A stretch of DNA of 42,734 nucleotides from positions 1 to 42,734 of IMG/VR virus record IMGVR_UViG_3300009163_000065, one strand, 5' to 3'. Under the pieces are notes generated by a model. It searched no databases. It was not told the DNA's origin and was given only the letters and a program-made list of their open reading frames with translations. The stretch's first letter is position 1, and the number at the start of each line of letters is the position of its first letter. This document shows positions 18,571 through 41,796 of this stretch, piece after piece. Both the position numbers and the translations under genes were made by a program. The DNA comes from a virus.

Positions 18571-19091
18571 TCATAGATAATTTCCTATCTCAAAAAGACT
18601 GGGATTATTGTTATGAATACTTTAAACAAGGGTACTGGCAGTTTCCAAATCTAAGTGGTATACAAGGTAATCAAGGTTGGAGAATATTTAACCCTGAGGT
18701 AGAAAACAATATAGGTAGGGTTCTTTACAGTGCTTTAAGTAAACATAACCTTAAACCCTATGCTATTAAAAGAGTTGGTATAAATGGAGCTACTACTTTA
18801 AATGAATCTCATCTACATAGAGATGGTCCCCCAGGGGATTTAAGTTTAATATGGTTTGCTTCTAAAGATTGGGATAAATCTTATGGTGGTAACCTTAAAG
18901 TTTACACTAAGAATAGCTTGACAGAACCTACCATTATAGAATATAATAGTAATAGGGCTGTAATATTTGATTCTAACTTATTGCACATACCTGACACTCC
19001 TAGTGTTAAAAACATACTTAGAATTACTGTAGGGTTACATTTAACTCCAGCATCTGAGTGGAACTATCAATATATACCGAGAGATAATTAA
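18567..19091 (+). CDS. 2OG-Fe(II) oxygenase C, prolyl-hydroxylase-like
   Basis: 174 residues with the full iron and 2OG set: HLHRDGPPGD (His84, Asp86), LLHIPDTPS (His140) and LRITVGLH (Arg152), in the arrangement of prolyl 4-hydroxylase-type enzymes. It is distinct from the two preceding oxygenases. Overlaps the previous gene by four bases and the radical SAM gene by one base (TAATG), so it is probably coexpressed with it. Confidence 0.75.
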   Translation: MIIDNFLSQKDWDYCYEYFKQGYWQFPNLSGIQGNQGWRIFNPEVENNIGRVLYSALSKHNLKPYAIKRVGINGATTLNESHLHRDGPPGDLSLIWFASKDWDKSYGGNLKVYTKNSLTEPTIIEYNSNRAVIFDSNLLHIPDTPSVKNILRITVGLHLTPASEWNYQYIPRDN

Positions 19092-20464
19092 TGCCTTTAT
19101 TTACAATTACCGCACAAAACTTTGTCACCCAAGATAAAAAAACAATATTATATGATTCGTCATTAAGTACTCTTAAATGGGAAGACGGTACAGACATAGT
19201 AAAAACTACCCCTAAAAATGATGATGTTGTTATCCCTGCTAAAATTGAAAAGGGTAAACGTAATTTAAAAACCATTAAAATTCAATTAGGTTTATCTTGT
19301 AACTTTGAATGTGAGTATTGTAATCAAAGATTTGTACCCCACGCAGAAGAAACTAATCCAGAGTATGTAGATACTTTTATTAATAACATGGATAGTTGGT
19401 ATAAAGGGGATGGTAAAGTTAACTTTGAGTTTTGGGGTGGAGAGCCTTTTGTTTATTGGAAAACATTTAAACCTCTTGCAGAAAAGTTAAAGTTAAAGTA
19501 TCCAAATTGTACAATGTCAGTAATTACTAATGGTAGTTTACTAGACAAAGAAAAGAATGATTGGTTAGAGTTATTTGAATTTGCAGTATCTATATCTCAT
19601 GATGGTCCTGGACAACATGTAAGAGGACCAGATCCATTAAATGATCCTGAATCTAAAGCAGGAGTTATAGATTTATATAAAAGATTAGCTCCAGTAGGTA
19701 AACTTAGTTTTAACTCTATGATTAATTCTAAGAATATAAGTAGAGTTGCTATTCAAGAATGGTTTGAAAACTTTGTTACTACAGAAATAGGACCTGAGTA
19801 CTTACAATACCTTGGAATAGGTGAGGGTACTTTTGTAGATGCCTATGATGAAGGTGGATTAGCCACATCATTATTACATGAAGAAGAAGATGTAAACTAT
19901 AGAAATATAGCTGCAGCTGAAATAAGAACTAATAAAGCTAATAGATTTGGTACCCTTCAACAAAAGTCTTTAAACTTTATTAAAGGTCTTTATGAAGGTC
20001 AAAGAATAGAATCATTACCACAAAAATGTGGAATGGATAAAGAAGATAATATTGCTATAGATTTAAATGGTAATGTTCTTACTTGTCAGAATGTAAGTCC
20101 TGTATCACATAACCCTGCAGGAATCTCACATCATATAGGGCATGTATCTAATTTAGAAGCTGTAGAAATTAAAACAGGAACTCATTGGAGTGACAGGTCT
20201 GAATGCCCTAACTGCCCTGTGTTACATTTATGTAAAGGTGCTTGTTTCTTTTTAACAGGTGAGCTTTGGGAAGCTTCTTGTAATAATGCTTATAGTGATA
20301 ATGTAATTGTATTTTGTAATACTATAGAAGCAGTTACTGATTACTTTCCTATACACATTGATGGGCCTTTAAGAAAAGATAGAAAAGATTTATTTTGGAT
20401 TATTAATGGCAAACCAGATAAACTTCGTAAACCTAAAAAAGTAATACCTATTATGCAAGGATAA
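19091..20464 (+). CDS. Radical SAM enzyme with SPASM-type C-terminus
   Basis: 457 residues. CNFECEYC (Cys70, 74 and 77) is the CX3CX2C cluster of radical SAM enzymes, followed by the GGEP motif (FWGGEPF, 116-119). The C-terminal part has eight more cysteines (313, 332, 372, 375, 381, 385, 397 and 409) spaced as in SPASM domains, which bind two further Fe-S clusters. SPASM enzymes mostly modify peptides and proteins (anaerobic sulfatase maturation, thioether or C-C crosslinks). The first 50 residues are an extra beta-like region. The motif context resembles anSME-type enzymes more than PqqE. It sits in the tail gene block, next to three oxygenases. Confidence 0.85.
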   Translation: MPLFTITAQNFVTQDKKTILYDSSLSTLKWEDGTDIVKTTPKNDDVVIPAKIEKGKRNLKTIKIQLGLSCNFECEYCNQRFVPHAEETNPEYVDTFINNMDSWYKGDGKVNFEFWGGEPFVYWKTFKPLAEKLKLKYPNCTMSVITNGSLLDKEKNDWLELFEFAVSISHDGPGQHVRGPDPLNDPESKAGVIDLYKRLAPVGKLSFNSMINSKNISRVAIQEWFENFVTTEIGPEYLQYLGIGEGTFVDAYDEGGLATSLLHEEEDVNYRNIAAAEIRTNKANRFGTLQQKSLNFIKGLYEGQRIESLPQKCGMDKEDNIAIDLNGNVLTCQNVSPVSHNPAGISHHIGHVSNLEAVEIKTGTHWSDRSECPNCPVLHLCKGACFFLTGELWEASCNNAYSDNVIVFCNTIEAVTDYFPIHIDGPLRKDRKDLFWIINGKPDKLRKPKKVIPIMQG

Positions 20465-26990: not shown

Positions 26991-29900
26991 ATGGCTGGAA
27001 ATGCTTACTTAAAAGGACTTGATCCTAGCATTGGTGAAGAAGCTAATATGCAAGCTTACTTAGATGGTATAGGTAAGGCTGAGGGTGCTGACTATGATAC
27101 TATTGTTGGTGGTAAGAAGTTTACTGATTACTCTAAACATCCTAATATAGTAGGTGTTACTACTAAGGAAGGCCCAAGCACGGCTGCTGGTAAGTATCAG
27201 ATTACTAAGACTACTTACGATTATTATGCTCCTAAACTAGGCATAACTGATTTTTCTCCTACTTCGCAAGATGCAATTGCAAAAGCAATTCTTAAAGCTA
27301 AAGATGCTGAAGGAGATGTTATTAAAGGAGACTTTGATGCTGCCCATTTAAAGTTAGGAACTACCTGGGCAAGTCTACCAACGAGTACATACTCACAACC
27401 TAAAAAATCCACTAAGTGGGTTCAGGAAAATATAAAACCTATTACACAAGCAGACATGCTAGATGTAACAGCTAATATAGCACAACCTGAACAGGTGTCT
27501 TATCGGCTCGGTTCTAATGACAATCCTTATGCTAGGGGTCTTGACTTACCGACTGAAACAGAAGTATCAGTAGAAAATAATCCTTATCGTAAAGGTATAG
27601 CTAAAGATAATCCTTATATGAAGGGATTAGATTTAAGTGAACCTGTATCTGCTCTTAAATCATTTGGTAAGTCTTTTGTAGGTAGTGCTTCTAAAGCTAT
27701 TGCTGCTTCTCCTGGTATGGCTATTGGTGCTGAACTAGGTGTAGAGACTGGCTTACTAGCGGGTCCTTATGCTCCTATTGCAGCTCCTGTATTAGGTCTT
27801 GTAGGTGGTGTAGGTGGTTACTTAGCTGGTGAAAAAGCTGTTAGTGCAGCTTATGATAAGTTTGTACCTGAAAATGTTAAAGAAGCTATTGGTTATGGTA
27901 AAGCTACTCGTGAAGCGGAAATAGCTGCTAACCCTGAATCATCTTATGCTGGTGAACTAACAGGTAATCTTGCTTTATTTAGACCTGGTAGCTTAGCTAA
28001 TATTACTCTTCCTGGTGGTAAAGTAATTACTCCTCTTGCTCAACGAGCTACATTAGGTGGTGTTTCTGGTGGTATTGAAGCTGGTTCAGAAGCATTATCT
28101 GGTGGTGAATTAAATCCTCAACGTATTGCAGAAGCTACTGCATTTGGTGCTATTGCGGCTAAACCTACAGCTATTACTCGTCATGCTGACAAGTTAGCTT
28201 CTAATCTTATCTCTAGAATTCCTGGAACTTCTGCTTATGAAACTAGATTAGCACAAGGACTTGAAACTGATCGTACTATTAATGGTACGCAAGAACGTAC
28301 GACTACTCAAGAACGTGCTGCTCCTGAACAACAAGATTTATTCCAAGAAGAATTAACTCAAGCTCAAGAGATGCAAAACAGGGGTCAAGTATTTGAACCT
28401 GGAGCTACTAGAACTACACCTACAGATGCTGTAATTCGATCAGAACAAGAAATTGATCTTGCTAAGATGGAAGCTAAACAAACTCGTTCTAGACTTGAAG
28501 AAGAGATTCCTGATTCTCGTAATCGTGAACAGATTACTATGTCTATTGAAGGACAAAAACGTCAAGATAGATTATTAAGTGACAGACAAAAAGCAGAAGA
28601 GCTTCGTATTTTACAATTAAGTATTGCTAAGAAACAAAACTTAGCTAATGCTATGGAAAGAGAACCTCTTAATGTTATCTTACAAAATACTAGAAATAGA
28701 GATGCTTATAACAATCTTAGAAATAAAGAAGGTTTCCCTAGAGATGGTACTCAAGCAGAACAATTAGCTTTCTTACGTAATGATATAGAGAATACTGTTA
28801 GAGGTCATAACTCTTTAAGAGATCGTCCTTCTGATGAACCATCATTTGGTGTAAGGGATTATATTGTTAGTGAGTTTAGACGTTTAGGTGAACGTGCTAG
28901 AAGTGAAGGTTTATTTCCTCAATTACGTAGAGACTATGTAACTCATGCTTTAGACTTTACTGACTCTGTTTTAAATAGAGAACAACAACGAGCTTTATCT
29001 GACTATTTATTTGCTAATACTAATGAGTCTAGGTTTGTTAGAGACTTTACACAAGCTCGTCAATTTAGATACATTCGTGATCTTGAAAATGCTTTACGTC
29101 AAGCTGGTGATGAACTTGGTATAAATACTCGTGGTATTAAAGTACAAAGAGATATAGCTAAGATCATGGAAATTTATAAGACTGCTATGGGTAGAGCTCT
29201 TGTTGAAAAACGATTAGCTAACTACTTACTTAAAACTAAAATAGATGGTTCTCCTATCTCTGGGCAAGTAGGGGAACTTCCTATTGTAACTAATAACATA
29301 GAACAAGGTTTTAGAAATAACTATGTTAAGTTTACAGGTCAAGGTTCTGATATCCTGCAAGATGTTATGGTACATCCTGACTTTAAAGATATTTTAGGGC
29401 ATGTCTTTAAACAAGATAATCCAAATGCTATGCTTGAAGCATTTAAATCTGTATCTATGTTATCTAAGTTTTTAAATACTGCAGGTTCATTGTTTCATGC
29501 AACATCATTAGCAGTAGCACAAGCTACCGCAGCTCCAGGATTATTCTTAAAAGAAGTAATGACTGGTGGTAGTGGTATTCGTGCAGCTTTAAAAGACCTA
29601 GAACATAGAGGTGTTGGAGCACAGGGTCAATTACTTATTAAAGGTGGTTTAAAGGTAGCTACAGAGGACGTACAGCGTACTATTATAGGTGATGCTGCAG
29701 GTACAGCAGACAAGTTAATTGGTGACCATCTTGTTGGTGGAAGAAATGTAAAAGTTCTTAGACAAATGAGTGATCCTTTAGAGAATCATTTCCTTAATCA
29801 TATGAATAGATTTACATGGGATTACATGCATGCTGGTGGTAAATTAAATCTAGCACAGCACTTTTTTACACAAATTAAATCTAAACATCCTGAGATACCT

Positions 29901-33962: not shown

Positions 33963-34187
33963 TTATGTTTTTAGTTCTTTCAATAGTTCTACATAATGGA
34001 TAATTTTATTAAGATCTTCCACTCCACCTTTGTCTTGCCATCGACATATATATTTAATAATGTTTCCTTCAATATAAGGAATATTATTTTTAGTAATAAA
34101 TTCAACAGGTTGGATTACATACTTCTTGTAATGTGTACCAGCCACTTGTTGTTCTATTGCTTTTTGTAATTTAGGAAGTTTACTCAT
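33963..34187 (-). CDS. DUF3310 family protein
   Basis: 74 residues with the DUF3310 core: GTHYKKYVIQPVEFITKNN, then GNIIKYICRWQDKGGVEDLN and a helix (KIIHYVELLKEL). This small family is widespread in phages, sometimes annotated as nucleotide kinase-related, but its biochemical role is not established. Its ATG lies right at the predicted start point of the promoter at 34194-34222, so the mRNA may be leaderless here. Confidence 0.85.
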   Translation of the reverse strand: MSKLPKLQKAIEQQVAGTHYKKYVIQPVEFITKNNIPYIEGNIIKYICRWQDKGGVEDLNKIIHYVELLKELKT

Positions 34188-34193
34188 GATATT

Positions 34194-34222
34194 ATTATAC
34201 CATGCCTTTCTGCGTTTTGCAA
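34194..34222 (-). promoter_or_regulatory. Host-type extended -10 promoter, leftward, probably leaderless transcript
   Basis: On the minus strand: TTGCAA (34222-34217), 17-base spacer ending in TGG, and a perfect TATAAT (34199-34194). Six bases (AATATC) separate the -10 from the ATG of the DUF3310 gene at 34187, so the expected transcription start is at or next to the A of the ATG. It would drive DUF3310, the small acidic protein and the reductase. Confidence 0.75.
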
Positions 34223-34314
34223 GACTTTTTAGAAGAAAGATGATGATAGTAGTTACTACGTTTTTTATCTATGTAGCAAGCCATTGATAGGAATATAATT
34301 ATAAGTAATAACAT
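34195..34314 (-). CDS. Possible small membrane peptide (39 aa)
   Basis: ATG at 34312-34314, two bases after the exonuclease stop. Starts MLLLIIIFLSMACYIDKKRS, a hydrophobic segment followed by a basic tail, like a small membrane-anchored or lipoprotein-like peptide (the Cys at 13 has no ideal lipobox). Its 3' end contains the promoter above. No clear ribosome site, so uncertain. Confidence 0.35.
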   Translation of the reverse strand: MLLLIIIFLSMACYIDKKRSNYYHHLSSKKSCKTQKGMV

Positions 34315-34316
34315 AA

Positions 34317-35063
34317 TTAAATCTGCACAAACGTTTGATGATCTTTGTCTTTGACGCTTTTGGTATTTCTAAAATTAGTTCCGCAGTCATTACAAACAAA
34401 TCGTTGGTACTTGGTGGTTCTTGTAGTTCGGTAACCTTTAGATTCAAACTTAGTACTTGCACAATTAGGACAACATAAACCTGTTCTAGAGTACATAGAA
34501 AGATTAATACCTGTACGAATCCATGGTAAGAATTTATGATAAACTTTTTCTAATAAAATTACATCTTGTTTATTATATTTCTCCATAGTTTGCCATGCAA
34601 CAGGATCTTTAGCCATACATTTAATCCATAGTTCATGACCTTCATGTTTTTCTTTCTTACCTAAACCAAGTGATTGTGCAATATAGTCTAATTTATTTGA
34701 CACAAATCTAAATCTATTTCTTGCTACTTTAAGTAAATCCATTTCTATTACAGGGCTTGGAGGAAACATACCTTCAAGTAAGAATGCTTTATTTAAAGAA
34801 GGGATATCAAATCGAGATCCATTATAATGTACTACAGCATCTGCTTCATCTAATAATTTCCAAATAGATTTAAGCATAGCTTTATAAGAACCGTTTTTAA
34901 TTGATTTAAATACAATATCTTTTTCACCTAACCATTTAGCTGCAAAGCAAAGAATCTGTGAGGATTCTAGTAATTGATTGATTGCAATGTTTTGTTGCCA
35001 GATGCCCCAGACATGTGCTGTATTGGGACTTGTCTCAATATCTAATAAAAGTATCTTACTCAT
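34317..35063 (-). CDS. DnaQ/RNase H-like exonuclease with C-terminal zinc ribbon
   Basis: 248 residues. Exonuclease motifs: ILLLDIETSPN (Asp8, Glu10), HYNGSRFDIPSLN, and KYNKQDVILLEKVY (motif III). It resembles the YprB/RNase_H_2 type. A C-terminal zinc ribbon is formed by GLCCPNCAS and FVCNDCGTNF. It may process nucleic acids in replication or recombination, or degrade host DNA. Start overlaps the upstream small gene (ATGA). Confidence 0.8.
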   Translation of the reverse strand: MSKILLLDIETSPNTAHVWGIWQQNIAINQLLESSQILCFAAKWLGEKDIVFKSIKNGSYKAMLKSIWKLLDEADAVVHYNGSRFDIPSLNKAFLLEGMFPPSPVIEMDLLKVARNRFRFVSNKLDYIAQSLGLGKKEKHEGHELWIKCMAKDPVAWQTMEKYNKQDVILLEKVYHKFLPWIRTGINLSMYSRTGLCCPNCASTKFESKGYRTTRTTKYQRFVCNDCGTNFRNTKSVKDKDHQTFVQI

Positions 35064-35236
35064 TTACGATCCTCAGAAGTTTCTACATGGATAATTCTTA
35101 AATCATTTGCATTAACATTAGGTAAAGCAGCAATGAATAATTCCATTGCATGATCTTTAGCTACGTTTTCATTTGGGCAATGAACCCGTATCTCTGTCTC
35201 ATAACGAATCTTTACCCAGTAGTTTTGCTTATTCAT
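35060..35236 (-). CDS. Small hypothetical protein (58 aa)
   Basis: ATG at 35234-35236 and TGA overlapping the exonuclease start. Begins MNKQNYWVKIRYETEIRVHC, contains KDHAMELFIAALPNVNANDL and ends ETSEDRK. Beta-alpha pattern, no family recognised. Four-base overlaps on both sides support it as a real member of the operon. Confidence 0.65.
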   Translation of the reverse strand: MNKQNYWVKIRYETEIRVHCPNENVAKDHAMELFIAALPNVNANDLRIIHVETSEDRK

Positions 35237-35436
35237 TTATAATTCTGTCTTTCATCAAGCATGGCATCAGCAATTTTATAAGATTGTTCTGCAAACTTTT
35301 TAACATCTGCATAAGACTTAACACGCAATAAACTATTTAGTGCTTCTAGTGCAAAGTAATCTCTAAGATTCATACCTGTATAGATTTGTTTGTTGTTATC
35401 TTGACACGGAAAAGCTGGTGAATTTCCTTGACTCAT
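35233..35436 (-). CDS. Small conserved phage protein (67 aa)
   Basis: Starts at ATG (35436) with a strong GGAGGT upstream. Begins MSQGNSPAFPCQDNNKQIYT and has GMNLRDYFALEALNSLL, the 'PAFP...GMTLRDYFA' pattern found in many phages, usually near replication genes. Function unknown. Overlaps both neighbours. Confidence 0.75.
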   Translation of the reverse strand: MSQGNSPAFPCQDNNKQIYTGMNLRDYFALEALNSLLRVKSYADVKKFAEQSYKIADAMLDERQNYK

Positions 35437-35627
35437 GATACCATACCTCCATCTTCTTTAAATAAATCTAGTTCTTGTTGGGCTACATCTGTAGCAATAC
35501 TAAACACACCACGTCTTACTAATTCTTTAATAGCTAAATCCATTAAGAACGAAGCTTCATTAGCATCAACATGGAAATCAAAGTCTAAAGATCCATCAGA
35601 GTTTTGTACACAATTGTTTATAATCAC
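35433..35627 (-). CDS. Small hypothetical protein (64 aa), GTG start
   Basis: GTG start at 35627 inside the 3' end of the endonuclease gene (32-base overlap), with AGGA 11 bases away. Contains DFDFHVDANEASFLMDLAIK and ELVRRGVFSIATDV, helical. The start is uncertain: no good ATG lies before the conserved-looking core. Function unknown. Confidence 0.6.
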   Translation of the reverse strand: MIINNCVQNSDGSLDFDFHVDANEASFLMDLAIKELVRRGVFSIATDVAQQELDLFKEDGGMVS

Positions 35628-35982
35628 TTAACCAGTCCTTTCGATAGTCTAACCACTTAAAGCCATTGGCTTCCGCCCACATCCAATAAGTTGTTTTACT
35701 TCTTTTATTAATTTTATTATCAGGATTCATAAACAAAAAGATAATAGTTGTATCAGGATTACATTCCTTAAACCACACCATTTTCTGTCTTGTATCTAAA
35801 TCAAGTTTACCTTTTGCTTCTAAGTAAATCTTTCTACGTCCTGTTCTAAAGTCAGGGATATACGTTCGTTCCTTTTCAGGTTGTATATATTTAAACTTAT
35901 CAGGTTCATATTTAACTGAAGGAAAGTTACTCTTCAGGATTTTCCATACTTGTTCCTCGAGTTTGCTCTTGAACGAGTTCAT
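35596..35982 (-). CDS. T7 endonuclease I-like Holliday junction resolvase
   Basis: About 128 residues from the ATG at 35982, which has AAGGA and GGTTTA upstream; in-frame ATGs at 36039 and 36006 exist. Core motifs of T7 gp3-type nucleases: SFKSKLEEQVWKILKS, KERTYIPDFRTG (Asp), IYLEAKGKLDLDTRQKM (catalytic Glu and Lys, ExK) and WMWAEANGFKW. It resolves branched DNA before packaging and breaks down host DNA in T7. It overlaps the exonuclease gene upstream. Confidence 0.85.
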   Translation of the reverse strand: MNSFKSKLEEQVWKILKSNFPSVKYEPDKFKYIQPEKERTYIPDFRTGRRKIYLEAKGKLDLDTRQKMVWFKECNPDTTIIFLFMNPDNKINKRSKTTYWMWAEANGFKWLDYRKDWLSDYKQLCTKL

Positions 35983-36637
35983 TAAACCTATCCTTCCAGT
36001 CTTCATTTTCTTTACGTCTAATCCATAACACACGACCATTCATTAAGAATTCTTCATCATTGCTGTATGCTTCACGAACAGCATTAAACATTTCTTGTTC
36101 TGTTACACAACCAGCTAGAATCTTTTCTGCTTTTTTAGGGCCAATCTTTTCAATACCTTTAATGTTATCAGAACGGTCTCCAGTCAAACATTGCATATAG
36201 AAATGACGCATACCTGAATCATTGGTAACTTCTTGAAACTCGTCTTTAACAAAGTTATAGTGCCGACCAGGAATCATAAGTAGGTCTTTGTCAATAGAGC
36301 ATATGATTGTATCCTCTGTTTGAGCAATACCTAAAGCATCATCAGCTTCTTGTCCATCAATTACTTCTGCATTAAATGTAGCAATAAGATATTGTCTACA
36401 CTTCTCAAGCCAGAATGGTTTCTCTGTAGGACGGTGAGCTTTATATTCAGGGTATATTGAATACCTAAAGTTATTTTTACCTGTTAAGAACAGACGATAC
36501 TCAGTTGCTTCAGTATTAACTAAGATTTGATCTACTAGATCTTCTGCTCTAGCATACACAAAGTCTTCAGCATCGTCTTCCTGAAGCGTACAAGCAACCC
36601 TATACGCTACAATATCAGCATCAATAAGAGCTTTCAT
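35927..36637 (-). CDS. 5'-3' exonuclease (FEN/PIN family)
   Basis: 236 residues. MKALIDADIVAYRVAC (first metal-site Asp), DGQEADDALGIAQ, CSIDKDLLMIPG and LTGDRSDNIKGIEKIGPKKA (helix-hairpin-helix) are the classic flap/5' nuclease motifs of Pol I-like and T7 gp6-like enzymes. It removes RNA primers and probably degrades host DNA. It stands alone here, the polymerase being encoded upstream in the operon. Confidence 0.9.
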   Translation of the reverse strand: MKALIDADIVAYRVACTLQEDDAEDFVYARAEDLVDQILVNTEATEYRLFLTGKNNFRYSIYPEYKAHRPTEKPFWLEKCRQYLIATFNAEVIDGQEADDALGIAQTEDTIICSIDKDLLMIPGRHYNFVKDEFQEVTNDSGMRHFYMQCLTGDRSDNIKGIEKIGPKKAEKILAGCVTEQEMFNAVREAYSNDEEFLMNGRVLWIRRKENEDWKDRFNELVQEQTRGTSMENPEE

Positions 36638-37146
36638 TATAGAGGAAAGTCATCTTCCATTTCATTAATTGCATCAATGCCTGTTGATTTAGCAAAAACA
36701 TAATCTTCGAATTGTTTAGCTACTGCTAAAACTTCTTCTACTGATTTACCTGGCCCTAGTAATTCTACAGCACTAGATAAAGATGATTGACGAACGATTA
36801 ACACTTGACGTGCTGCACGTTCTTCTTTAGTTTCATAGTTGCTACCAGTTACACGACCACCAGCTTGTGGTGTTGTTTTAGTTTCAGTTGCCACAGTTTT
36901 ATCTCCTTCAATACCAATCCACTGCCAATAACCAGCAGCATCTTTTTCAGTTCGTAAATTAATTTGATCACCTTTAGTTAAATCTTTAATGTGATTAAAC
37001 ACACTAGGATTACTAAAAGACATTAACTTTTTATTTTTTACTTGACCTTGATCATCTTTGTAAGTTACTTCAATTGATTGATAAGATCTGCCATTCTTTG
37101 CAGCATGAGTATTTGGTGCACCAACATCTATAATATTAATTAACAT
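36637..37146 (-). CDS. Single-stranded DNA-binding protein
   Basis: 169 residues. The N-terminal 80 residues are OB-fold like (LINIIDVGAPNTHAAKNGRS, YQSIEVTYKD, DQINLRTEKDAAGYWQWIGI). A flexible middle follows, and the end is an acidic tail (EMEDDFPL) of the SSB type used to recruit other replication proteins. Located between the polymerase and the 5' exonuclease; overlaps the polymerase end by 11 bases. Confidence 0.75.
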   Translation of the reverse strand: MLINIIDVGAPNTHAAKNGRSYQSIEVTYKDDQGQVKNKKLMSFSNPSVFNHIKDLTKGDQINLRTEKDAAGYWQWIGIEGDKTVATETKTTPQAGGRVTGSNYETKEERAARQVLIVRQSSLSSAVELLGPGKSVEEVLAVAKQFEDYVFAKSTGIDAINEMEDDFPL

Positions 37147-37852
37147 TCACTATCTCCATATTGCCCCAGTTAGGTCCTACTTGACACTCAACCCTCATGG
37201 GAAGATTAAAATCTACTCCAAACAATCTTTTAAAGTTTGCTGGAATATCCGTAAAACACTTATCAACAATCTTTACCATACTAGTATTATCGCATACTTT
37301 TTCATCAAAGTCAACAATAATTGAATCATGTACAGTATTGATTAGTTTAACATTTTTTATACCCTTAAGTCTATTACTCAAAGATACTCTTGCAATAGCC
37401 ATTAGGTCTGCACCTAATCCTTGCACAGGGTAATTTAATATCTTTGTTCTAGGCCATTTAACTTGTCCTCCTCTAAGATCAGGTTCGTAGTAATAGATTC
37501 GTCCTGTTGGCATTGTGAGTTTTCTATCTCTTTTAGCGTCATTGACAATGTCAGTATGCCACTCTCCGAGTCGTACATATTTTGTATAGAACTGATCAAT
37601 AACTCCTTGCCAAAACTTTTCTCCACCAATTTCTTTAAAATTGGGATCTCTTGCATAACTCCAGGCGGAGCCTCCATAGATAAGTCTGAAGACAAAGGTC
37701 TTTGCGACCAGTCTACTTGGTAATCCAAATCGTTCTTGGTTATCGCTATGTTGATCAACATTATTTAATATCTCCTTGATTGCTACTGAATCTTGACTTA
37801 AGTAAGCAGCACAAACCCATTCCAAAGCTTTAGCATCAGCTTGTAACAGCAT
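37136..37852 (-). CDS. polA: DNA polymerase A, C-terminal part (motifs A-C)
   Basis: About 238 residues if started at the ATG at 37852, which has GGGAG five bases upstream. It begins exactly at motif A (LLQADAKALEWV) and contains motif B (RLVAKTFVFRLIYGGSAWSY) and motif C (TVHDSIIVDF, with HDS instead of the usual HDE). The N-terminal half of the polymerase is in the next ORF upstream, in a different frame, overlapping it by 17 bases (37836-37852). It may be made as a separate chain, or joined to the N-part by a frameshift. A longer frame up to 37888 (TTG) has no ribosome site. Confidence 0.88.
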   Translation of the reverse strand: MLLQADAKALEWVCAAYLSQDSVAIKEILNNVDQHSDNQERFGLPSRLVAKTFVFRLIYGGSAWSYARDPNFKEIGGEKFWQGVIDQFYTKYVRLGEWHTDIVNDAKRDRKLTMPTGRIYYYEPDLRGGQVKWPRTKILNYPVQGLGADLMAIARVSLSNRLKGIKNVKLINTVHDSIIVDFDEKVCDNTSMVKIVDKCFTDIPANFKRLFGVDFNLPMRVECQVGPNWGNMEIVNVN

Positions 37853-39005
37853 ACCTACTCCCAAATAGTTGTTTAATTTCTCCATCAAAGTTTTGCAAGT
37901 TAGGTTTACTAGATGACAGTCTACCTGTTTTTGCTACACATTGATTAAGTTGACCATGTAATTTATCTACAGGCCAGTTCATAGATGTTCTAAGTTCAAC
38001 CAGTCCTCTATAGTAAGTTGTTAATCGTTTCTCTAGAGTTGCACGTTCTAGTATTAGTTTAACTAGTTCTTTAGCTTCTTTAGTTCCTCGTAAACTTTTA
38101 AGAGTTGACTCGTCAGTTGAAAACAATCCTTCTTTATCTAATTCAGATCCTTTTAATGGATTAATACGTCTATCAAAGTTTATTAGATGTTCTACCCATT
38201 TTTCTTTTGCCTGTCCTTTGCGATCTCCCGTTTTAAACAGGCCAATAACTTCTCTACGTTTTACTTTTATAGTACCGCCATACAGTAAACAAGATAGCTG
38301 CTCATTACTGGAAGGATTAAACTCAGGAAGATTATGATATGGAACCAAGGCATTATCGAGATCTTTAATTTGTTGTTCCAATTCTTTTGCAAGAGTATTA
38401 GCTTTTGTTTCATCAAATAAAAGTCCATTGTATTCCATTTCTTCTAAGACCATTAAGTCTTGGTTATGTAAACTGATTAGTCGTTGCATGGGTTTTGTGC
38501 ATGACGCAAATTCTTGCATTTGTTTATCAAATACCTTTTGCGTTAAATGCAAATCACCAATTAGATATTCTTCAAGAATCTCTTTTGGAATATTAGGTGT
38601 ATCTATTTTGTTGCCCCAATACTCTGTAGCAACAACATCAAGCTTGCTACCCAAACCATAGTACTCAGAGACACCATTAAGACTTGGATAGGAATCCTGT
38701 TGGCCTTGCAATATAAAATGTACCAACTGACAATCCCAAACACGCTTACCCACAAAGTTAATTCCATATTTGCGAAGCCAATGCAAATCAAACTTAATGT
38801 TAAAGCCAACCAATATCTCAGCTTGATCAATTTCTTTTTGGATCTCCTCTAGTTTATGTCGATAGGGTTCATCGTCATACTCAATAGCATAGCATTGAGT
38901 TTTGTCAGTATTGGATAACCCAACATAACAAAGTTTATTAGACTCGTCAAATGGGTTACCCTTGCTACTGATTGTTGTTTCTACGTCTAAGATTAAGCTC
39001 CGCAT
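37836..39005 (-). CDS. polA: DNA polymerase A, N-terminal part (3'-5' exonuclease and thumb)
   Basis: About 389 residues from ATG 39005 (GGAGG five bases upstream). Proofreading motifs: SLILDVETTISS (Asp7, Glu9), VGFNIKFDLHWLRKYG, and LIGDLHLTQKVFDKQ. Then the thumb and the start of the palm, to KTGRLSSSKPNLQNF, DGEIKQLFGSRY. The frame ends after AVTS, just before motif A, which continues in another frame at 37852. The complete set of pieces points to one polymerase divided in two. Confidence 0.88.
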   Translation of the reverse strand: MRSLILDVETTISSKGNPFDESNKLCYVGLSNTDKTQCYAIEYDDEPYRHKLEEIQKEIDQAEILVGFNIKFDLHWLRKYGINFVGKRVWDCQLVHFILQGQQDSYPSLNGVSEYYGLGSKLDVVATEYWGNKIDTPNIPKEILEEYLIGDLHLTQKVFDKQMQEFASCTKPMQRLISLHNQDLMVLEEMEYNGLLFDETKANTLAKELEQQIKDLDNALVPYHNLPEFNPSSNEQLSCLLYGGTIKVKRREVIGLFKTGDRKGQAKEKWVEHLINFDRRINPLKGSELDKEGLFSTDESTLKSLRGTKEAKELVKLILERATLEKRLTTYYRGLVELRTSMNWPVDKLHGQLNQCVAKTGRLSSSKPNLQNFDGEIKQLFGSRYAVTS

Positions 39006-39162: not shown

Positions 39163-40404
39163 TTATAAGTCCTCATAACGAGCGATTTCAGGTTTGATTA
39201 GAACCTGTGTTGAACCATGCCTAAGATCAGGCATAGTATCTTCATCACCAATAAGTTTATTCTTACTGATGTTAAAGTATCTAGTGCGGGATGTGTTGTC
39301 TTGTTCTTTACCAATCCCTAGAATCCAGTCAGCCTCACCTTGTTTAGCTGTTTTAGATCCATCAACCATATCCATGGTTAGAAACAACTTCCCTTCCGCT
39401 TCGCCACTTGCTTGTGACACCGCGATGACGGGAGCGTACGTTTTAGATATTTCCCTAGCCCATTGATAAATTTGTTTAAGTTCCAAGTCATTACGATCTC
39501 CTTTGAATCCACGAATCTTATCTATCTGGTCAAAGATAATTAACGCAGGTTTATATTGTTTAAGTACACCTTCAATTTTATGTTTGCTACTTGAATCTTC
39601 GAAGTCTAGAATTTTAATTCTGTTACCTGTTAAGGCTCTATAGTCTTCTTTGTTTTTTGTTTTGTTAGTAAATAACTCTTTCGTAGTAAGACCAAGGGCA
39701 GCTTGGTAAACCCTAATACCAACTTTATTTCCTTGCTCTTCGTTGTTAAACCATAAGACGTCCCCATCAGTTTGACTGACCATGTGAGTAATTTCAGACG
39801 CAAGAAATGTAGTCTTACCAGTCTCAGGCCTAGCAAAGATAAAGCCAAAATCACCCTTGCGAAGACTACCAAGAGATTTGTTAAGCCATCTACAACGCCA
39901 CCGTAGACCTGGAGTGGCAATCTGTGAATTGTACAAGTTATCCAAGTCCATATCAACTGGAGTAATTTCATCAGCTTCTACCTCCTGGTGTTCAAAGTCA
40001 TTAAATAATTCTAGCAGCTCTGCTGTAGATTTCTTACCAGCTTCTACATCTAAAGCCATTAAAGCAACTTGACCTGCAAGAGAACGTCTTCGATGTTCTT
40101 CTAACAGGCCAATGATTATTTCAGGATTAGATGTGTTTTGATTATAGACATCATCTAACAGTGTTATTAGTTCTTTTCTTTCATTATCTTTTAATAAATA
40201 ATTACTATTATAAAATATATCTAATTCATTAATAGTAATTATATTATTATCTATATATTTATTATAATATAAATCTATAATATTAAATAATTTATATAAA
40301 TCATTATAATTAATTTTAATATAATTTATGTTAACATACTTGTAATACTTTGTAAAGAGATTCTTGTCTGTACAAAATAGTTTAGCTATTTGTTTTTCAA
40401 CCAT
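39163..40404 (-). CDS. Replicative DNA helicase (DnaB/T7 gp4 C-terminal type)
   Basis: 413 residues. Walker A in GFIFARPETGKTTFLAS (about 187-203), Walker B-like PALIIFDQIDKIRG, and a RecA-type ending (GSKTAKQGEADWILGIGKEQ, RYFNISKNKLIG). The first 75 residues are very rich in Asn, Tyr, Ile and Lys, encoded by extremely AT-rich DNA. It unwinds the template for the polymerase and works with the primase encoded just upstream (overlap 19 bases). The two T7 gp4 activities are on separate chains here. Confidence 0.88.
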   Translation of the reverse strand: MVEKQIAKLFCTDKNLFTKYYKYVNINYIKINYNDLYKLFNIIDLYYNKYIDNNIITINELDIFYNSNYLLKDNERKELITLLDDVYNQNTSNPEIIIGLLEEHRRRSLAGQVALMALDVEAGKKSTAELLELFNDFEHQEVEADEITPVDMDLDNLYNSQIATPGLRWRCRWLNKSLGSLRKGDFGFIFARPETGKTTFLASEITHMVSQTDGDVLWFNNEEQGNKVGIRVYQAALGLTTKELFTNKTKNKEDYRALTGNRIKILDFEDSSSKHKIEGVLKQYKPALIIFDQIDKIRGFKGDRNDLELKQIYQWAREISKTYAPVIAVSQASGEAEGKLFLTMDMVDGSKTAKQGEADWILGIGKEQDNTSRTRYFNISKNKLIGDEDTMPDLRHGSTQVLIKPEIARYEDL

Positions 40405-41090
40405 GCGTTGATTTCTCCTGTTGAATATTCTTTAGGATCTTTGGGTGTAATTATTACATCTGAATCAATACCCTTTTGTTTTAAATTTCTAGCCTGTTTA
40501 ACAGCTTCAATTGCTTTATCCCTATCCAACCATATAAAAACTTTATTAAAGCGTTTAAGGATAGTTTCTGTAAGTTCTAGGGGTATAATAGAACCTAACA
40601 AGGGTATTACACATACATTTTTATTTGATTTAGCAATTTTAATAGCAGAAATTACATCTTCTACACATACAAGTGTATCACTAATGTTATAAAATATCAA
40701 TGGCTTTTTACCTTTAGCTATGTACTTAGGACCATATCCACTAAAGTTTCTACCTTGATGATACTCAGGTGTATTGAGTAACACTAGCATTTGTTTTCTA
40801 GGTTCCCAACCTATTTGATATAACTTTATATCGTCTTTTGTAATATTATATTGCAATAACCATTGCATTGGTTTTAATGGTATGTTATAATCTAATACTA
40901 ACTCATCAGATAGCATCGCATCCTCACGATGCTCTGACAATCTGTTTCGTATACTATTTAGATCATTCTTTTGTTTTTTATATCCACATCCAAAGCAATA
41001 GAATCCATCAGTATATTCTGCTAGATTATCACGGCTGCCACATTTAGGACAATTGGTGTGTTGGATAAATGCCATCTGGTTTCCATTCAT
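40386..41090 (-). CDS. DNA primase (zinc ribbon and TOPRIM)
   Basis: 234 residues from ATG 41090 (or ATG 41075). The zinc ribbon is NCPKCGSRDNLAEYTDGF and YCFGCGY. The middle holds a primase-like region (WLLQYNITKDDIKLYQIGWE), and TOPRIM motifs follow (TLVCVEDVISAIKIAKSN with acidic centre; VFIWLDRDKAIEAVKQA). This matches the N-terminal part of T7 gp4. It supplies RNA primers to the separate helicase. The start overlaps the 2OG oxygenase gene by up to 47 bases. Confidence 0.88.
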   Translation of the reverse strand: MNGNQMAFIQHTNCPKCGSRDNLAEYTDGFYCFGCGYKKQKNDLNSIRNRLSEHREDAMLSDELVLDYNIPLKPMQWLLQYNITKDDIKLYQIGWEPRKQMLVLLNTPEYHQGRNFSGYGPKYIAKGKKPLIFYNISDTLVCVEDVISAIKIAKSNKNVCVIPLLGSIIPLELTETILKRFNKVFIWLDRDKAIEAVKQARNLKQKGIDSDVIITPKDPKEYSTGEINAWLKNK

Positions 41091-41609: not shown

Positions 41610-41638
41610 ATTACAAATGTACAAAATAGGAGTATAAT
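41610..41638 (+). promoter_or_regulatory. Promoter of pqqA
   Basis: ATTACA (41610-41615), a 17-base spacer, then perfect TATAAT (41633-41638). The -35 matches TTGACA at four of six positions. Transcription would start near 41645, about 40 bases before the pqqA start. It is the only good plus-strand promoter in this arm and points at pqqA alone. Confidence 0.7.
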
Positions 41639-41683
41639 ATTACTACATACTAAAAATTTGTATGCAACTTTTAGGAGATTACT

Positions 41684-41755
41684 ATGTGGACAAAACCAGC
41701 AGCTACTGAAATGCGTTTCGGTTTCGAAGTTACAATGTATGTAATGAATAAGTAA
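41684..41755 (+). CDS. pqqA: PqqA, precursor peptide of pyrroloquinoline quinone
   Basis: A 23-residue ORF with Shine-Dalgarno TTAGGAG seven bases before the ATG. It begins MWTKPAATEMRFGF and continues EVTMYVMNK. Family PqqA peptides have MW(K/T)KPA at the start and G(F/L)EVTxY at the end; here Glu15 and Tyr19 lie at the same positions as in the 23-residue Klebsiella peptide. PqqE joins these two side chains and PqqB, F and C complete PQQ, the cofactor of methanol and glucose dehydrogenases. None of those genes is in the window, so the host enzymes would process it. The gene lies on the opposite strand to all neighbours. Confidence 0.93.
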   Translation: MWTKPAATEMRFGFEVTMYVMNK

Positions 41756-41771
41756 TTACACTCCATAGATA

Positions 41772-41796
41772 GCAGACGCCCTAACAAGGGCTCTGC
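41772..41796 (+). terminator. Strong hairpin after pqqA
   Basis: GCAGA-C-GCCCT, loop AACA, AGGGC-TCTGC: ten base pairs with one bulged C (41777). It lies 16 bases after the pqqA stop and before the end of the leftward 63-codon gene. There is no T-run, so it may protect the 3' end of the mRNA rather than end transcription. In bacteria a hairpin often follows pqqA and raises its mRNA level. Confidence 0.65.

Follow-up and report, generated by a model that had tools for sequence, protein, structure and literature searches.

Why would a phage encode the peptide substrate of a cofactor pathway and none of the enzymes that act on it? The question is raised by a short open reading frame (ORF) in a 42.7-kb IMG/VR virus record (IMGVR_UViG_3300009163_000065), the whole of which was analysed and is referred to here as the window. 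The ORF lies at 41684..41755 on the + strand, consists of 23 codons plus TAA, and encodes MWTKPAATEMRFGFEVTMYVMNK. A sequence-only reading had identified it as pqqA, the gene for the precursor of PQQ, and had proposed that the phage supplies this peptide to the PQQ pathway of a methylotrophic host.

Identity and setting of the window pqqA

Membership of the PqqA family is supported by two curated profiles. The Pfam model PF08042 matched MWTKPAATEMRFGFEVTMYVMNK over profile positions 1-19 of 19 with 42.4 bits (E 6.4e-11), about twice the curated cut-off of 21.1, and the NCBIfam equivalog TIGR02107 (PQQ_syn_pqqA) gave 40.4 bits against a cut-off of 20 (E 1.8e-10). Because both cut-offs are passed, the similarity is far beyond chance; a PDB sequence search with the peptide returned no match. 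Glutamate is residue 15 and tyrosine residue 19, four apart and in the PqqA register. Glu15 and Tyr19 of PqqA are the residues that are joined to form PQQ. The length criterion for PqqA, about 22-26 residues with a ribosome-binding site of its own, is also fulfilled. The coordinates, the 23 codons, the PqqA identity and the Glu15/Tyr19 register that had been claimed for the ORF all held.

The ribosome-binding site, AGGAG at 41673..41677 (+), is 6 bases 5′ of the ATG, and such sites precede 107 of 113 distinct viral pqqA genes versus 9% of random ATGs. A possible sigma-70-type promoter at 41610..41638 (+), with ATTACA, a spacer of 17 and TATAAT (41633-41638), rests on a 10/12 consensus match only, which by itself is weak evidence; support is added by the recurrence of TATAAT at a like distance before pqqA in six relatives of the window. 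Across all viral pqqA genes a general promoter signal (≤3 mismatches) was not above that of composition-matched shuffles (39.8% versus 39.0%), and promoter claims are therefore restricted to the TATAAT position in the window's relatives. A stem-loop (CATAC..GTATG) predicted at 41646..41664 (+), where the transcript is expected to begin, might stabilise the mRNA, and the evidence is suggestive only: stems of at least 7 pairs occur in 36% of viral pqqA 5′ leaders versus 11% after shuffling. Downstream, a strong hairpin, GCAGA.GCCCT(AACA)AGGGC.TCTGC at 41772..41796 (+), has no T run behind it and is a possible terminator or 3′ stabiliser by prediction. The 3′ flanks of 65% of distinct viral pqqA genes fold with z below -2, versus 5% of random stretches. 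The ribosome site, promoter and hairpin of the sequence-only reading thus held, the promoter by consensus only and the hairpin without a T run. Rfam and tRNA scans of the window gave no matches. The ORF is a genuine, full-length phage pqqA that probably forms a separate transcription unit, although its promoter rests on a consensus match; cross-linking of the peptide by PqqE/PqqD and its conversion to PQQ are inferred.

The window is a bona fide phage genome in which TerL, portal and polymerase have phage relatives. Its TerL is closest to that of an uncultured spring phage (75%) and its polymerase to those of the Methylophilales phages MEP402 and MEP401 (57%). The pqqA gene reads on the + strand within a leftward-reading block. 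A claim that all of its neighbours are phage replication genes is inexact, as the primase-like protein (40386-41090) is one gene away, with the DnaB-type helicase (39163-40404) beyond it and an A-type DNA polymerase on the same side, all named from an annotated relative. The 175-aa ORF between pqqA and the primase and helicase gave no significant hit in Pfam; the opposite flank of pqqA holds two small ORFs and a RimK-like ATP-grasp ORF. A perfect 12/12 sigma-70 match (TTGACA, 17, TATAAT) at 42265-42237 (-) points leftward and perhaps drives the leftward block.

The claim that no other pqq gene is present held: tblastn found no relatives of PqqB, C, D or E in the window, and the PqqE HMM found none. 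These missing genes were not counted against PqqA identity because orphan pqqA genes are common in hosts. A radical-SAM/SPASM protein at 19091-20464 (+) was considered as a phage PqqE and rejected, with 0 matches to TIGR02109; its best NCBIfam relatives are PapB-type and other SPASM/RiPP maturases, all far below cut-off. It is directly preceded by three ORFs, of which at least two match 2OG-Fe(II) oxygenase families, and it may form with these oxygenase-type ORFs a cassette, located after the tail genes, that modifies a peptide or protein of unknown identity.

Distribution of pqqA among phages

When the 23-aa window peptide was used to query 50,697 phage records, PqqA was found in the Methylophilales/Methylophilaceae isolates P19250A (freshwater), Venkman, MEP301, MEP401, MEP402 and four Melnitz isolates, that is, in every named Methylophilales phage isolate that was located. 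The phage-host pairs are Venkman and Melnitz on H5P1, MEP301 on HTCC2181, and MEP401/402 on FZCC0133. Venkman, MEP301 and Melnitz were described in 2023 as the only OM43 isolates before MEP401/402 (PMC10580990), and since all of these match, every OM43 isolate named in that paper has pqqA. Few if any flanking proteins are common to these isolates, which are also classified differently. In none is the gene annotated as pqqA, the locus being blank or lying under an antisense 'hypothetical protein'; PQQ is unmentioned in the papers on MEP301, MEP401/402 and Venkman and appears in the Melnitz paper as a medium supplement only. P19250A was said to encode none of these genes (pqqA, methanol dehydrogenase) (PMC7678222), a statement contradicted by its sequence (KX815270.1), which has an unannotated pqqA at 28085-28153. 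The remaining matches among the 50,697 records were one spring-water phage (host unknown) and two Acinetobacter 'phage' records. The Acinetobacter record that was opened, filed as 'Acinetobacter phage MD-2021a' (CAKLQF020000010.1), was rejected as a case of phage pqqA: the stretch read consists of bacterial DNA that includes a whole pqq operon and ppk, and the record is apparently mislabelled. No PqqA match was obtained in the same search for MW202796 (Manatee Spring; host unknown), whose TerL is 75% identical to that of the window. Collections cannot be listed by host, and Methylophilales phages without pqqA may exist unseen.

For metagenomic viruses, IMG/VR was searched with a pair of degenerate DNA patterns that cover the N-terminus and the core, respectively. 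The searches indicate at least about 190 IMG/VR contigs with pqqA; both patterns, the named phages and the window together give at least 196 viral loci at which the PqqA ORF is complete. These lower bounds include near-duplicate contigs from different samples. Among 120 loci found with the N-terminal pattern, 29 had no PqqA call, including one real PqqA with a variant residue and two that look truncated or frameshifted; the remaining loci fit the pattern by chance in other sequence.

Exactly one PqqA over cut-off was present in each of 49 whole viral records chosen for carrying the gene. PqqD was found in none of 49 pqqA-bearing viral records other than the window, an HMM search found PqqE in none of the nine such records examined, window included, and the flanks of viral pqqA genes hold no pqqBCDE-like matches. 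From the absence of PqqD (49/49) and PqqE (9/9) we infer that the phages supply substrate only. One of the 49 records (72 kb) encodes a PQQ-dependent alcohol dehydrogenase whose best match is XoxF (PDB 6oc5, E 1.4e-199) and which carries the motif WDYDG. This motif is the lanthanide-type aspartate motif. A search of the 72-kb record for a T4 portal gave no match, and neither did the control.

In the same record (72,356 bases) the XoxF-type gene is followed by a 946-aa ORF that, as assigned by eye, resembles a formate dehydrogenase alpha subunit, and the pair, at contig 33989-38784, may represent a phage-borne methanol-oxidation module.

Counts of lineages from shared flanking proteins (single linkage) were uninformative owing to chaining, and the isolates and the positions of pqqA within the window's clade are used in their place. 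Relatives of the window TerL were fetched and the whole records searched, giving 24 records. All 7 clade records of at least 45 kb have pqqA; the 9 of 24 without it are all shorter than 35 kb and are therefore probably incomplete. Within the clade pqqA occupies four or five different sites. In the window and its close relatives it adjoins the primase. In other records it lies upstream of w928, before the packaging block; downstream of the structural gene w9908; in the gap from the end of the late block to the leftward-reading w31899, which kinship suggests is a ribonucleotide reductase; or flanked on both sides by copies of one small ORF. One record of 50,776 bases (G179) has two copies at different sites, at 45380 and 32544. 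Functional selection would be expected to produce such a pattern, in which the gene is retained although it has been gained or moved repeatedly.

Selection on the peptide and the host pathway

An overall pN/pS of 0.15 was replaced by values calculated on codons that had not been used in the search. For 74 distinct ORFs retrieved solely by their codons 1-6, pN/pS over codons 7-23 is 0.10; for 78 ORFs retrieved solely by codons 13-19, it is 0.31 over codons 2-12 and 20-23. Glu15 and Tyr19 are kept in 91 of 91 ORFs found by the N-terminus alone. These ratios and the clade positions show that strong purifying selection maintains viral pqqA across phages. Its target is the peptide and not DNA identity, because synonymous changes are almost saturated (pS 0.55-0.68) and the amino-acid sequence has nevertheless been preserved. 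Of the checks proposed with the sequence-only reading, those for an HMM match, presence in related phages and conservation of Glu15/Tyr19 were thus passed.

The host of the window phage is likely to be a Methylophilales methylotroph, an inference from the peptide motif and the polymerase kinship. The motif EMRFGFEVTMY occurs almost only in Methylophilaceae, where 26 host copies encode exactly the window's peptide and the nearest copy differs from the window gene at 3 of 72 bases. PqqA was found in 120 of 120 Methylophilaceae genomes sampled, with a median of 4 copies (range 1-12) and still a median of 3 in genomes of 1.4 Mb or less; PqqE exceeded cut-off in 39 of 40 genomes and was almost always single. 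Many host pqqA copies stand alone, and the multi-copy habit of the family was already known (PMC4109929). The phage location, probable methylotroph host and omission by gene callers put forward in the sequence-only reading are all supported. Five Methylophilaceae loci were also seen to hold tandem pqqA pairs about 200 bp apart that encode divergent peptides (MWTQP.. and MWTKP../MWTTP..).

Published work on bacteria bears on whether PqqA supply matters. Its availability was reported to be rate-determining in Methylovorus MP688 (Ge et al. 2015, cited in PMC11317620), and overexpression of pqqAB in Acetobacter raised PQQ by 29% (PMC7936290). The pqqA of M. extorquens AM1 was reported to be dispensable, orphan copies not having been examined there (PMC11317620). 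The orphan copies of M. extorquens respond to lanthanide source, and it has been suggested that PqqA takes part in lanthanide uptake (PMC11317620). In Methylophilales, PQQ is known chiefly for its use in methanol oxidation.

Proposed role and alternatives

We consider it likely that phage pqqA is a substrate-only auxiliary metabolic gene that sustains host PQQ and methanol oxidation. The analysis shows that the gene is present, belongs to the PqqA family, is conserved and is under selection at the protein level, that the enzymes are missing and that the host has the pathway; translation in infected cells, use by PqqD/PqqE and benefit to the phage are inferred, and there are no expression or metabolite data. 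The phage peptide would enter the host pathway, where PqqD would present PqqA, PqqE would cross-link Glu15 and Tyr19, a host protease would free the cross-linked pair, and PqqB and PqqC would complete PQQ. One PqqA would be consumed per PQQ, with PqqB-E acting as reusable catalysts, so that the substrate gene alone would suffice at least cost. Shut-off of host expression by the phage would cut the supply of substrate while the enzymes, which are assumed to persist, remain. Continued PQQ supply may then keep the PQQ-dependent (XoxF/MxaF) methanol dehydrogenases running in infected Methylophilales, and the benefit would be sustained methanol dehydrogenase activity in cells that draw carbon and energy from methanol. 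Such substrate supply would explain pqqA without enzymes in the phages searched, the invariant Glu15/Tyr19, and hosts that multiply only pqqA. The XoxF-type methanol dehydrogenase co-encoded in one pqqA-bearing viral record is in favour of this reading. A rise in PQQ and in PQQ-dependent dehydrogenase activity or methanol oxidation, as proposed by the sequence-only reading, is still inferred.

The peptide could instead be a decoy that occupies PqqD/PqqE, lowers host PQQ and shuts methanol oxidation. The conserved leader, which is expected to bind the maturation enzymes, and the lack of PQQ enzymes in the phage are compatible with a decoy; we regard it as unlikely, as the cross-linked residues would be dispensable in a decoy but Glu15 and Tyr19 never vary, and the phage peptide equals the commonest host substrates. 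Moreover, one record with viral pqqA encodes a methanol dehydrogenase as well (also PMC7678222), which suggests support and not blockade. Additional PQQ might also serve a use other than methanol oxidation, such as lanthanide binding or uptake, oxidative-stress protection or another PQQ enzyme. The lanthanide response of orphan pqqA and the proposed uptake role in M. extorquens speak for this, but the dominant known use of PQQ in Methylophilales is methanol oxidation and the only PQQ enzyme found in a viral record is a XoxF methanol dehydrogenase, and this alternative too seems improbable.

Less probable again is that phages retain pqqA chiefly as a target for homologous recombination with the numerous copies in the host, with the peptide of lesser importance. 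Short homologous units are repeated in host and phages, and there are several insertion sites; however, the near-saturated synonymous sites, with the protein kept, make this very doubtful. That a host pqqA was carried by chance, or that host fragments were misfiled as viral, could be argued from a short host-like unit so close to its nearest host copy. This is virtually ruled out, being already contradicted by the isolated phage genomes, by clade-mates that hold pqqA at defined phage positions, by viral flanks without pqqBCDE-like matches and by strong purifying selection.

Substrate supply by the phage thus remains the preferred reading, and a bolder form of it can be stated, which we consider more likely than not. 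In this form pqqA would be near-universal in phages that infect methylotrophs, acquired several times over by unrelated families and overlooked for its size; phages would control a RiPP-type cofactor pathway through its ribosomal substrate alone, mirroring the multi-copy orphan pqqA of their hosts, and PqqA supply would limit methanol oxidation during infection in oceans and lakes.

The sequence-only reading could not say whether such a gene had been described before. Viral pqqA as a kind is known. The Lake Baikal phage VP_266, predicted to infect Methylophilaceae, carries pqqA and a methanol dehydrogenase, and a role in methanol oxidation, the same as that proposed here, was suggested in 2020 (PMC7678222); VP_266 is T4-like and has both genes, whereas the window phage has pqqA alone. 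A bare mention comes from a 2026 study of reservoir sediment viruses (PMC13188868), in which pqqA is listed among the viral genes, beside pqqD and pqqE, and is treated as a phosphorus-cycling gene, with no methylotroph link in the relevant passages. The spread of pqqA through isolates and unrelated lineages and its shifting position appear unreported in the open-licence literature searched. The closest bacterial counterpart is the orphan pqqA of Methylophilaceae (PMC4109929) and Methylovorus MP688, with the same 23-aa peptide, a single-gene unit, a ribosome site, a downstream hairpin, and multiple copies beside a single pqqBCDE. These copies are in bacterial chromosomes, and many printed examples end in T-run hairpins, unlike the window gene. 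Cyanophage photosynthesis genes such as psbA supply a fast-consumed component of a host energy pathway, psbA replacing a protein that turns over. Phage pqqA would likewise provide a fast-consumed part of such a pathway, although as a ribosomally made cofactor substrate.

Phage infection would thereby be tied to marine and freshwater methanol turnover through one 69-nucleotide coding sequence, its effect in infected cells being inferred. The case also illustrates that a widely shared phage metabolic gene can escape standard annotation, and it corrects the published statement on P19250A. The isolated phage-host pairs make the substrate-limitation idea directly testable. Six viral loci encode another PqqA type (such as IRLGFEVTMYF) without the Methylophilaceae signature, and may belong to phages of other PQQ-making bacteria.
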